From: Spiroplasma clarkii
GTDB lineage: Bacteria > Bacillota_I > Bacilli_A > Mycoplasmatales > Mycoplasmataceae
Reading direction: 5' to 3'
Length of the DNA stretch: 64,000 bases
NCBI RefSeq assembly: GCF_002795265.1
Contig: NZ_CP024870.1
Span: 744,001-808,000, forward strand
The notes beneath the pieces were generated by a model. That model had not been told where the DNA came from and did not search any database. It saw only the letters and a list, made by a program, of their open reading frames with translations. Made by a program: the position numbers and the translations under genes. This document shows, in pieces, positions 34,353-62,505 of this stretch (within the stretch, counting starts at the first letter, position 1; the number at the start of each line of letters is the position of its first letter).

Positions 34353-35319
34353 CTAGTAAGTTTGAGATTTATCATTAAACTCTTCTAAGAGGAGAACTCC
34401 CCTATCGGTAATTTGTCTCCCCTTTTGAGTCTTGATGATTAACCCATTAACTAATAAGTTGGGTTCAATACTATTTAGGATATACCCATATTGCAGATTT
34501 AAAATTTGTTTAAGTGATTCAAGACCCAAAGATTGATTTTCTTTTAAGATTTTTAAGTAAGCTAAATCCAGTGATGAAAGACCATATTTATAAATATCTA
34601 AACGTCTTAAAACAGTCTTTAAGTACTCTAAATTCAGTGAAACTGGTTTTTCAATAATTAAAAAGTCATGAACCCTTTTTAATAGATTAACTGCAATTCT
34701 AGGATTATTTTTGCAGTGAGTTGCAAGAAACTCAAAGAGTTGAGCATCTAAATTCAGGTTCATTTTTTGACTTTGAATTGCTAAAATTTTACTAATTTCA
34801 GGAATTGAATAACTGGCAAAAATAAAATTAATTGGAAACCGATTAATAAAGGGTGCAGTTAATTTGTTAATTTCAGTAGTTGCAACAATTAGAGTAAATT
34901 GAGGCAGATTAACATTAATAATTTTTGCATTGTACTCTTTGCCAATAATTAGATTGATCTTATTGTCTTCTAAAACAGGATACAGAACTTCTAAAACTTC
35001 TTTTGAAACTGCATGAACCTCATCAATAAAAATGATTTCTCCTTCTTTAATTGATGTTAGAGGAGAAATTATGTCACTCGGTTTTTGTAAGGCAGTTCCA
35101 TTAAGAATATAGATTTTTTTACTTAACTCATAAGCAATTAGGTATGCCAGTGAAGTTTTTCCTGAGACCACTACCTCCATGTAAGATCATGTGGTCCAGA
35201 CGGGTATTTCTTAGTTTGCTTGACTGGATATAAATTTTTAGATTGCCAATAATTTTTTCTTGACCAATGTAAGTTTTAAATGAACTGGGACGTTCAACAT
35301 TATTAAGATTGTATTTCAT
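34353..35319 (-). pseudogene. ruvB: RuvB Holliday junction helicase, frameshifted in the Walker A loop
   Basis: RuvB is the AAA+ motor of branch migration. The N-terminal frame runs from ATG 35319 through HMILHGGSGL and then leaves the family; the next frame resumes at GKTSLAYLIAYEL (35162 down) with Walker B IIFIDEVHA, sensor I ATTEINKL, and a complete C-terminal winged helix. One extra base around 35163-35165 (CTC-A-GGA) explains the break exactly; total length is 3n+1. Without it the P-loop reads GGSGLGKTS. Either a sequencing error or a real inactivating mutation. The start overlaps ruvA. Confidence 0.85.
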
Positions 35320-56348: not shown

Positions 56349-57206
56349 TTACAACTTTATTCTCACATAATTGTAAAATTTTTGATATAAACTTGCATTT
56401 AGCTGATACTCAGCAAGTCCTTTATAACAGTAATTTTCTTTTAAGCATTCTCTTTTAAAAACTGATCAAAACCCTTCAATCCAACCATTATCTGTAGACT
56501 TGGCTATTCTTGACATGCTTGGAATCAAATTAAAGTACATTAGCATCAACTTATAATTATATGCTTTAAATTCAGAACCATTATCTGAGTGTATTACACT
56601 GTTTGGCAAGAAGACACCAAATTCATCAGTCATTTTTAGAAATGATTTTTCTACAAGTTGATTCCCTTTATTTTTTTCTGTTACTAAACCAAATATTTTT
56701 TTCATTTTAATATGATAAAAACCACAGGTATAGTATCTTTCACCATTGAATTCCTTTTCTGTTATGTCTACTGAAAAAACATCACCATACTTATCAAAAT
56801 TTTCAGGATCAGTTAACAAGTTTGGGTATTTACCAACCTTTTCAGGTTTTGCTACCTTATTTTTTCATTTCACATGATTATTGGTGGAGATGCTTCTCAT
56901 TTTAAAGTATCTCAATATTTTTTTATGTGATGACTTAGCTATCCCCTTAGTGAGCAAATCTATTGCAATTCTTTTACAACCATAGGTTTTTCCTGAATCA
57001 ATAAAGCTCTGCTCAATATTTAAATAAAAATCATGATCATAATATCTTACCCTAGGTTTCCCTTGCTTCACTCATTCATAGTATGTACTTTTTGGAAGTT
57101 GAGCAATTTTTAATAAGCCATTTTTAGGTATTTTGAATTCATTGTAGATAAATTCCTCAACAACTAAGCATTTAATTATATTAAGCTCCCATTTAACTAC
57201 TTTTTT
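56349..57206 (-). CDS. IS transposase OrfB, copy 2
   Basis: Same protein as in copy 1, including the D-D-E residues; reached by a -1 slip at 57200-57206. The encoded protein sequence is identical to copy 1. Confidence 0.92.
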
Positions 57207-57493
57207 TTACTTATCAGGGCCTCAATTCTTTTTCACATTTCATTTCTAGTTTCTAATTCGGCATTTTTCTTCTTCAGCTCTTTAACTTCATTTCTTAAAA
57301 TTATTAGTTCTTCTTTATCAGCTGAATTTGGTGCCCCAAGACCATCAATTCCAGATTGATCATACTTTTTACACCAATTTAAAAGTGTTTGATCTGAGAT
57401 GCCATAACTTTTAACAAAATTCTTGGCCTTTGTCTTGCTCTCTCTAAATTTTAAAATTATTTTTTCTTTTTGCTTTGCTGAGTAATGTCCCAT
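57197..57493 (-). CDS. IS transposase OrfA, copy 2
   Basis: 98 aa, identical to copy 1 at the protein level; one Glu codon differs (GAG instead of GAA). Confidence 0.92.
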
Positions 57494-58600: not shown

Positions 58601-58631
58601 AAAAGCAACTCATTTTGTGAGTTATTTTTTT
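58601..58631. terminator. Bidirectional terminator
   Basis: AACTCA pairs with TGAGTT around TTTTG, with A and T tracts on both sides, between convergent genes. Confidence 0.75.
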
Positions 58632-59934
58632 ATTTAAAAAAGTCATTTCCCTTAGTAAAGCCAGCAAAAAACTGCATTTTAACATATTCATGTCCAGCTG
58701 TGGGGTTTTCATAGCGGAATTTATTAAGTGCTGAAAGAAAAACTTTATCATCAAGACTTAGTTTTTCAAAGTATTTAGCAGAAAATAAGATATTATCTGC
58801 TAGGATTAAGGCACAATTTGATACAAAATACTCTTTGGCCTTGCTTTTTTCATCAATTATTAATAAATATTGGTTGATAAAATTCTGCAATTTTTTGTTG
58901 GTTTTGTCAAAAACAATGGTTACTAGTGTATTTTTACAAACATCATTCACACAAAAACTTATGGGATTTTCAGCAACAAAAACGTTATTTACTGAATTGA
59001 TTACTTGAAAATCACTTGGACTAATTTGTGGATAGATTAGGTCCAAGATTTGAAAGTTTTTTTGACGCCCCAATTCCCAAGTAATTACTTTTAAATCTGT
59101 GTTTTTTTCATAACTTTTCAAATATTTTAACAAAATATTTTGTAAAGATTGAACCTGGTTTGCTAGTTTTTTTAAACGATAAACAAAAATTGCTTGAAAA
59201 CCTGTTTCTGCGATTGAGTTAAAATTACTTAAAAAGTCCTCTTGACTGGCAGTCAAACAAACTTGAGCAATAAATAGTTTGAATAAAATTGCACAAGTAT
59301 GCATCTGAATGATTTCTATTTCACTACTTTCTTTTGACAAAACGTTTTTTTGGTTAGTTTGCTCATGATCTGCACACCAACCAAAATATTTGAAATTATT
59401 GGCTTCAACAGTATTAAAGAAAACTTCCCCCATTTTAAAATTAGAATCTAAAGGGTTAATTTTATTGGTTGAATATCATTTTTCATTTGCAAAATCAATT
59501 TGGTATAAATTTGATTCCACTGCTTGTTTTTGACAAGTTGGAATTGCACAAACTTGTTTAGCACCTAAATTTTGGTAGTGTTTTAAAAAAAGTTCTGTCA
59601 TTTTTGTTTGAAACACTTTAAATTCATCAGGATTTAGTAAACTTTTTTCATATGAAGTATAAGGTTCACTACGTTTTGGTTGCATCTTTGTTTGACAACA
59701 TTCTGCAAAAACTTTACCACTCAAGCAAAAACACTGGTCTTGGTTTTGAAATTTAAAAAAACTATACCCATTATCTTCTAAAAAATTAATATTATCATTG
59801 TCAAGATAATAATTTTCCATAATTGATTCTAAGAATTGGTTTTTATCTTTATTTGATAGAGTGTTATTGCACATTTCTTTCATAACATCAGCCTCACTGA
59901 CTGTGTTAATTTCTTTAATTTTGTCTTTATCCAT
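58630..59934 (-). CDS. SEC-C-motif protein, 434 aa
   Basis: One TGA-Trp joins two parts. Start ATG 59934 follows GTGGAGGTAAAG. An SEC-C-type zinc motif occurs at residues ~68-80: CFCLSGKVFAECC (C-x-C-x-S-G-K-x4-C-C). Further Cys pairs (e.g. CAIPTCQ, CADHE) may add metal sites. The remainder is helical and unrecognised. It lies 34 nt downstream of the MarR gene and is probably cotranscribed with it. Confidence 0.78.
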
Positions 59935-59968
59935 TTTCTTTACCTCCACATAATTGATTTTGGATTAA

Positions 59969-60411
59969 CTATTGCTCTCATTTTAAAAATTTGTTAACAA
60001 AACTCGAAACAACCTGAGTGATACGGTCATTATTTTCTAATTGTAAATTAGTTTCAATTCTTGCTTCTTCAATTCAAGTTTCAATCTCACCAGCAACTAA
60101 CTCACCTTTTTTAGATAAATATAGTTCATTTTCATTAGCTCGGGCTGCTGTTTTTTAATCACTAGTTCATTATCTAACAAAATTTTTATATTTCTTGATA
60201 AAGTTGATTTATTAGTATTGCTTAATTCTCCAAGTTCAAATTGGCTAATGCCAACAGCATGTTTTATAAACATTAAATGAACAAAGGCATCAGCATAAAG
60301 TTTTGGGAATGCCTTAGTGAACCTTTGACGAAATTCCCTCATTAAGAAGTTTACTAATAAATAAAGTTTAACATGAATATTTAAATCATCAATATTGTAT
60401 TTTTTTGGCAT
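59969..60411 (-). pseudogene. MarR-family regulator, frameshifted
   Basis: A winged-helix MarR protein: start ATG 60411 follows GAGGAATT. The recognition region ISQFELGELSNTNKSTLSRNI is intact (ISQFELGELSNTNKSTLSRN). After ELVIKK the frame breaks at a run of six As (T6 at 60151-60156 on the plus strand); with seven, it reads TAARANENELYLSKKGEL, exactly the MarR wing and C-terminal dimer helix, ending at TAG 59969. In the current frame translation stops near 60097. Either a homopolymer error or a real knockout. Divergent from the ABC exporter. Confidence 0.8.
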
Positions 60412-60433
60412 TTCTAATTCCTCATTATGATAA

Positions 60434-60465
60434 AATAATATTGTTTCATATAAAACAACATTATT
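60434..60465. promoter_or_regulatory. Inverted repeat, candidate MarR operator 1
   Basis: Arms AATAATATTGTTT and its near-exact complement lie around a ~6-nt centre, 23 bp upstream of the regulator start. Confidence 0.45.
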
Positions 60466-60540: not shown

Positions 60541-62505
60541 ATGAAAAATCAGAAAAAGCAGGTCTTCATTCTTAAGAATAATTTGTACAAACAAATCTGA
60601 CAGTCTTTAAAAGATAGATGGTTTTTGGCAAGTTTAATGTTGACCTTGACAATTTTTATGTCATTATTATTAATTACAAATATAAAAATTATTGAATACA
60701 TTACTGCTCTATTAGTATCAAAAAGTGTTATTGATGCTGCAAATAATGTGGAAAAAGCCAATGGTTTTTTTAGTCGTTGAGTAACTGATCCAAATTTGCA
60801 AAAAATAATTTTAGAAAATCTCAATAACACTATTAAAGACCGTGAAGCTTTTTTACAAGATGTAATCGAAACATTTTTTTATAGCAATGTTAATTATACA
60901 AATCACACAGTTTACTTAGTTCTTTGGGGTTTAAACTTAAATCTTTATAACCTTGTTGAAATTATGATTGTGGATATTGCTTTGGTTATTTTAGTGGTTT
61001 ACATAGTTTACATCATTAGTGGCTACATTGCTGGAAGCTATGAGGCAAAAATTAGAAAAGCTTTAATTGACAAGTTAATTGATCAAGATTTAGATTATTT
61101 TAGTCAAAATAAAACTGGTGAACTAATTGGTACCTTGGTTAAAGAAAGTAGTATTCTAGCAAAACACATTAAAGAAGCACCAGCCAACTACACCCTATCT
61201 AGTGTCACAATTTTGATTTCATCAATTATGATGTTTAAAATTAATTGAAAACTAGCTTCGAGTGTTTTTGGATTATTAGCAATCTTTTTAATCTTAGTTT
61301 TTATCTTTATTTTGATAACCAATAGTAGCACTAAAAAAATTCACCAAGCAAGTCAGAAATTAGATAATAATTTAACTGAAAAAGTTTATAGCATTCGTTT
61401 GATTAAATCAAGTGGAACCTTTAATAAAGAGAAAACAGAATTTCAAGAGTCAATAAATTTTGTTGATAAAAAAAATAAAGGTAAATTATTTTTAGCTGAG
61501 ATTCCCAATGCTTTAATTGTTGGAGGCATTGGAAGTTTCTCAATGGCTAGTATTATCTTTGGTGTCTTTTTATATTATGAACAAACTCAAGCACTTGTTA
61601 GTGTAATGACTGCTTTTACTGCTGGAGTTATTGTAATGACTCTTCCAATTTTGCAATTGCGACAAGTAATTGCTGATGAACCAGCAGCACATGTTGCTGC
61701 AGCATCTGTTGTAAGAATTTTAGATTCAACTATTTGCATTGATAAACACAAAACCCAAATTATTTCTGAGCCATTAACAGAAATCTGTTTTGAAAATGTT
61801 GAATTTAAATATCCAAGTAGTGATGAAATCATTTTAAAAAATTTAGACATTGAACTCAAAAAAAATTATAAATATGCTTTTGTAGGACCAACTGGAAGTG
61901 GAAAATCAACAATTGCTAAATTGATTTTAAGATTTTATGATCCATCAAGTGGACTTATAAAAATTAATCAAAAATATAATTTACAAGACCTAAATCTAAA
62001 GTCATGATTGGACAAGATTGGTTATGTTGATCAAGAACCACAAATATTAAGTGGAACAATTTATGCAAACATTGCTTATGGACTTGACAATGTTTCAAAT
62101 GAAGACATAGTAATTGCTGCAAAAAAGGCAAAATTGCATGACTTAATTATGAGTTGATCTGATGGTTATGACACAATTTTATTTGAGTGTGGAAGTCAAT
62201 TGTCAGGTGGACAAAAACAAAGATTAGTTATTGCTCGTTTGATTTTAAAAGACCCTGAGATTTTAATTTTAGATGAAGCTACTAGTGCTCTTGACAATAT
62301 TGTGGAAGCGGAAATTCAAGCAGAACTTGAAAAACTTATGGTTGGTAGAACCACAATTGCAATTGCTCATCGTTTAAGTACAATAAAAAGTTTTGATAAA
62401 ATTTTTGTACTTGAACCAAGAATGGGAATTGTTCAGATTGGAACCTTTGATGACTTAATTAGTAAACCAGGTTTATTTAAAAAATTATATGACATCTCAA
62501 GTTAA
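60541..62505 (+). CDS. ABC exporter with fused membrane and ATPase domains, 654 aa
   Basis: N-terminal domain with about six helices (residues ~30-370) and a C-terminal ATPase: Walker A GPTGSGKS (449-456), signature LSGGQ (554-558), Walker B ILILDEATS with D578/E579, and H-loop His611. The type is the ABCB/MsbA-like half-transporter, which must dimerise. Start ATG 60541 follows AAGGAGACTAG. Several TGA-Trp codons. Divergent from the MarR gene, hence probably under its control. Substrate unknown; multidrug export is likely but unproven. Confidence 0.93.

Follow-up and report, generated by a model that had tools for sequence, protein, structure and literature searches.

A MarR-family regulator gene, divergent from an ABC exporter gene, is interrupted here at a run of six adenines, and the rest of its coding sequence lies in another frame. 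Is the gene broken in the cell, so that the exporter would have lost its repressor, or does the interruption reflect an error in the record, a reversible switch, or a shorter protein with a use of its own? We consider it probable that the break is genuine and of recent date, a null allele of a MarR repressor that controls both itself and the exporter. The window, by which we mean the whole 64,000-nucleotide stretch analysed, covers positions 744001–808000 of a single contig of 1,560,007 bases, which carries a pair of 16S genes, one at 0.46 and one at 0.56 Mb. Several genes of the window, including the ABC exporter, need TGA to be read as tryptophan (code 4) for continuity, and the off-frame C-terminus of the MarR gene likewise depends on this reading.

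The frame break and its intact relatives

From an ATG at 60411 the translation keeps in register with the MarR family through ELVIKK, and the frame is then left at the A6 run, where the zero-frame context is ATT AAA AAA CAG; under code 4 the zero frame ends at a TAG (60097–60099). Beyond that point, translation in the –1 frame gives TAARANENELYLSKKGEL...KFLKWEQ and meets its own stop at 59969–59971. With the intact MarR protein of a congener (G009) as the tblastn query, residues 1–99 aligned with 60411–60112 and residues 87–143 with 60154–59984 in a different frame (E 1.1e-9). The preliminary description had placed the exit from the frame after ELVIKK at the A6 run, with a stop near 60097, and this is confirmed by the sequence, its translation and tblastn; its further claim of a complete C-terminus, reaching 59969 in the other frame, agrees with the G009 alignment, with codon usage and with homology.

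Features of the MarR–exporter locus (window coordinates)
Feature	Position	Strand	Description
C-terminal part of MarR: wing, RANENELYL, dimerisation helices	59969–60150	–	–1 frame; stop near the family's usual end
MarR-family regulator, open frame	60097–60411	–	87 in-register residues (through the recognition helix) plus 17 off-frame
A6 run, frame-break site	60151–60156	–	Lys-Lys/Gln/Arg codons of relatives fall here
Putative extended –10 of ABC exporter	60428–60436	+	TGATAAAAT; abuts the putative operator; read from sequence
Putative MarR operator, 32-bp palindrome	60434–60465	.	16-nt arms, 88% complementary; core TTGTTTCATATAAAACAA at 60441–60458
Second, perfect palindrome, TTAGGCA-CT-TGCCTAA	60494–60509	.	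Also listed as terminator-like, minus strand
ABC exporter, permease + ATPase	60541–62505	+	654 aa from ATG 60541; TTG 60502 start possible; open throughout

Homologues of the N-terminal part of the regulator, used as the query in a search of 20 genomes of the genus (this one and 19 congeners), were found in ten of the 19 congeners at 38–50% identity, and under code 4 all ten genes are single open frames. A profile search over 60 genomes of the family gave matches in 15 and added one intact orthologue from another genus (G022, E 1.6e-51), bringing the intact orthologues to 11. Distant paralogues were left out: from the N-part search, G003 and a further G005 match (E about 3e-4); from the profile search, G003, G021 and G025 (E 1e-9 to 1e-14). 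At the site of the run the congeners encode Lys, followed by Lys, Gln or Arg and then by Thr, Ile, Val or Leu. Four of the ten have an in-frame A7 (G005, G016, G017, G008), three an in-frame A8 (G007, G018, G015), and three a shorter run, also in frame (G009, G014, G002); the run in the window is one base too short for its frame.

The short product passes the Pfam cut-off for the MarR winged helix-turn-helix (PF01047; 27.6 bits versus 24.6), matching positions 5–54 of 59. All 11 orthologues encode the wing and the C-terminal helices for dimerisation in a single frame with the rest of the protein; this copy does not, and alignment to solved MarR proteins, together with general knowledge of the fold, puts the RANENE-bearing wing and those helices in the part taken away. 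We found no second MarR match above the Pfam cut-off in the genome (one reached 23.2 bits, below it), and replacement of the regulator by a paralogue was rejected on this ground.

The tail beyond the break is homologous to the C-termini of the relatives, and its openness off frame is more than chance. Among off-frame stretches of 57 codons taken from real genes of the sampled genome, 72 of 3,478 are free of stops. The codon-usage log-odds of the tail is 0.334 per codon, compared with a median of 0.276 for in-frame windows of 60 codons and gene means of –0.38 and –0.48 off frame. Identity to the relatives is 39–49% for the N-part and 29–38% for the C-part, and the intact G005 gene falls off alike when set against the other relatives (47–55% and 36–44%). 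Because the tail keeps normal codon usage and an operator-like motif is retained upstream (see below), the break is either recent or an error. Nothing in the trees clearly points to a long relaxation of selection, with end branches for MarR and ABC of 1.6 and 0.59 here and 1.14 and 0.45 in G005. The MarR branch of this genome is the longest of 11 rows in a weakly supported tree where its placement is unsure, so some earlier relaxation is possible.

A conserved repressor–exporter pair and its candidate operator

In all 11 genomes with an intact MarR orthologue, the gene is divergent from an orthologue of the ABC exporter, whose products are 54–61% identical to that of the window. The exporter is a complete MsbA-like fusion of permease and ATPase; it matched 184 NCBIfam families, the best 25 of which (HepA, MsbA and others) all scored under their curated cut-offs. 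One member of the set, G015, carries an exporter orthologue with an internal stop and a lost C-terminus (L024, 4801–6576) beside an open MarR gene, and the module thus decays from either side.

The promoter region shared by the two genes holds a palindrome that we propose, from the letters, as the operator (see table). Just after the putative –10 of the exporter, the motif TTTYAWATRAAAY is found in the window and in all ten congeners; in G022 there is a near, palindrome-like form that the strict motif misses, and G015 shows the operator-like site most clearly, as a palindrome that is perfect over 34 bp. The putative –10 was not listed by a consensus promoter scan, and a TTGAC sequence resembling a –35, present in nine of ten congeners, is absent in the window. 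As a loose pattern the operator motif alone is not rare (13 matches on both strands of 474 kb of the genome), whereas the core consensus had zero further matches elsewhere in the genome at up to two mismatches, which suggests a one-site regulon in which the repressor would control its own gene and the exporter. The TTAGGCA palindrome, also in the shared region, occurs in this genome only among the 20; it was rejected as the ancestral operator, having an exact match in none of the 19 congeners.

Further along the minus strand, just downstream of MarR, lies a gene for a 439-aa protein (58630–59949) with no NCBIfam match at E 0.01 and no counterpart at E 1e-5 in ten 9-kb loci of the relatives. 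Its Cys-rich stretch, CFCLSGKVFAECC, presumably resembles a SEC-C motif. An IS3-like transposase at 56349–57493 (minus strand) looks degraded, consisting of two separate ORFs and a gap, both under the family cut-off. A tRNA scan and an Rfam search at gathering score found nothing in the window.

MarR proteins bind as dimers through their N- and C-terminal helices. We propose a conserved two-gene module in which a MarR-type autorepressor is encoded divergently from an ABC exporter, both under a common palindromic operator, and in which a one-base contraction in a lysine-coding A run, at the edge of the wing, has recently thrown the wing and the dimerisation helices of this copy into another frame. 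Its product would keep the recognition helix and lack the wing and the C-terminal dimer helices; it would be expected not to bind as a dimer, and the exporter to be constitutively expressed. The conserved pairing (11/11) and the retained operator-like motif make derepression plausible. The preliminary description had argued that loss of the dimerisation helix would derepress the divergent exporter: the exporter and its divergence stand, derepression goes as far as plausibility, and the loss itself is larger than supposed, since the wing with RANENE goes too. If the mutation is real, it is a natural regulator knockout in a conserved repressor–exporter module of Spiroplasma-like bacteria, and with the operator-like site still present both the operator and the one-site regulon become testable.

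Rival readings: error, slippage or a short functional protein

An error of sequencing or assembly would mean that the organism has an intact gene and that a base of its A run is missing from the record alone. We judge this, the main rival reading, possible, if on balance unlikely. Consistent with it, both halves of the gene, the operator-like motif and the codon usage all look maintained, and the genome has two other frame breaks with conserved halves. One is in ruvB (window 34380–35319, minus strand), broken near 35160, just before the GKTS of Walker A, with halves 55–67% identical to the relatives; the other is in a citC-like citrate lyase ligase gene (L045, near 12781), broken at an A8, with halves about 41% identical to G009. 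Our survey of such breaks, which used the ORFs of two relatives as references, gave three at 165 loci of this genome (MarR, ruvB and the citC-like gene) and none at 296 loci of G009 or 292 of G005 (0/588 in the two relatives sampled alike; Fisher p 0.010). The window holds 35 of the 165 loci tested and two of the three breaks. This count leaves out rows with internal stops (three in this genome, seven in G009, six in G005), those of this genome having targets in L042, L037 and L034 and reference ORFs of 104–136 aa; with such rows included, the proportions are 6/165 versus 13/588 and the difference is not significant (p 0.28). An earlier survey (104 genes of this genome, 103 of G009), superseded by the wider one, had seven internal-stop rows, six of which were differences at ends; the seventh, an ORF of this genome at L034 10212–10949, compared with L066, was taken by eye for a spurious ORF.

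The excess of frame breaks, if real, fits gene decay and indel errors alike. Against the error reading, the ruvB break lies outside any homopolymer, and the spectra of A/T runs in this genome and in its relatives are similar up to a length of 8, arguing against a general collapse of homopolymers. S. clarkii CN-5 was sequenced, according to PMC6007557, by MiSeq to 430x, with a further 60x of mate pairs and with gaps closed by Sanger reads; if the strain is CN-5, such data would rarely miscall an A6. The record as it stands carries at least three frame breaks among the 165 loci tested, and these should be checked before the genes are called pseudogenes.

The preliminary description also raised phase variation or transcriptional slippage at the run, and this idea is not supported. 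Phase variation of the run, or slippage in transcription or translation yielding some full-length repressor, is in our view very unlikely, even though the site is an A run and the tail has been maintained, open to its natural stop. The 271 ORFs that reach 200 aa in a sample of 474 kb contain 836 runs of A6, 403 of A7, 117 of A8 and two of A9, so that an A6 is ordinary in this genome and not the unusually long run expected of a phase-variable gene. Shuffling of synonymous codons predicts about 29 A9 and 17 longer runs; two coding runs of 9 or more were observed against about 46, and it appears that runs of this length are avoided and runs of 6 are not. Outside ORFs, the sample of this genome has few A9 (three); counted over all sequence (800 kb each), there are 46 runs of 9 in G009 and four in G005. 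None of the ten congeners is off frame at the site, and seven of them read through an A7 or A8 in frame.

As to programmed –1 frameshifting, the zero-frame codons at the run differ from the canonical X_XXY_YYZ heptamer, the relatives are read in a single frame, and no Shine-Dalgarno-like stimulator can be read just upstream. The next 71 bases have a marginally stronger fold than their shuffled versions (z –1.79, matched by 7 of 200 shuffles). Its outer stem opens directly at the base following the run, without the short spacer usual after a slip site, and a longer inner stem begins some 24 nt downstream. We think it very doubtful indeed that the run serves as a low-frequency reversible switch (A6 off, in-frame length on) or that slippage at a low level still provides a little full-length repressor; were the switch true, exporter expression would differ between cells of the population.

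That the short product has a function of its own, such as that of a competitor or of a regulator with changed behaviour, is exceedingly improbable: it retains the recognition helix and scores above the MarR cut-off, but codon usage in the tail still fits the other frame, leaving little time for a new role, and dimers of MarR proteins form through both the N- and the C-terminal helices.

Known systems and long A/T runs in a relative

In all likelihood the frame-broken gene is a knockout of an ordinary kind and of recent date; a sequencing slip is possible, and a special switch is improbable. Its nearest counterparts are the MarR/SlyA autorepressors divergent from an efflux pump (PF01047; 3s2w, 4mnu), with which it shares the winged-helix N-part, the divergent exporter and the promoter palindrome (a profile of the relatives matched the solved structure 3s2w at E 1.4e-7); it differs in that the frame break cuts off its wing and its C-terminal dimerisation helices. 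Rv0678 of Mycobacterium tuberculosis is a regulator of the MarR type. A passage of PMC10353445 describes loss-of-function mutations in this repressor of MmpL5-MmpS5, and the likeness is that of a small regulator whose mutation is expected to derepress an exporter. The bacterium here, an insect symbiont if it is S. clarkii, differs in having no known selection for derepression. A passage of the review PMC5009743 names genes of Buchnera and Blochmannia with poly(A) slippage. There too, in AT-rich bacteria that live with a host, an A run interrupts the frame; the runs on which that passage reports slippage are of 9, whereas ours is of 6. Searches of the literature on Spiroplasma MarR/ABC transporters and on S. 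clarkii pseudogenes gave no title that mentions such a module. Beyond the knockout and the warning about the record, we regard the finding as ordinary.

Long A/T runs form a distinct class in one of the relatives. Runs longer than 9 are absent from the sample of this genome, and G009 has two of 10, one of 14 and one of 15. In G005 (L087–L126, 800 kb sampled) the A/T runs end at 9, with none at 10–14, and are followed by a separate class of 35 runs of 15–20, 28 of them 16 or 17 long. Of these 35 long runs, 27 have a called ORF starting no more than 250 bases downstream, and several of those ORFs are lipoprotein-like; TTGC directly precedes 12, and a loose –10-like match, counted without a shuffle control, follows 19 within 12 bases. 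Among the papers listed by a literature search, no title has Spiroplasma in it. In Mycoplasma hyorhinis, the vlp genes have phase-variable promoter spacers, and by analogy the long runs of G005 look like spacers of this kind.
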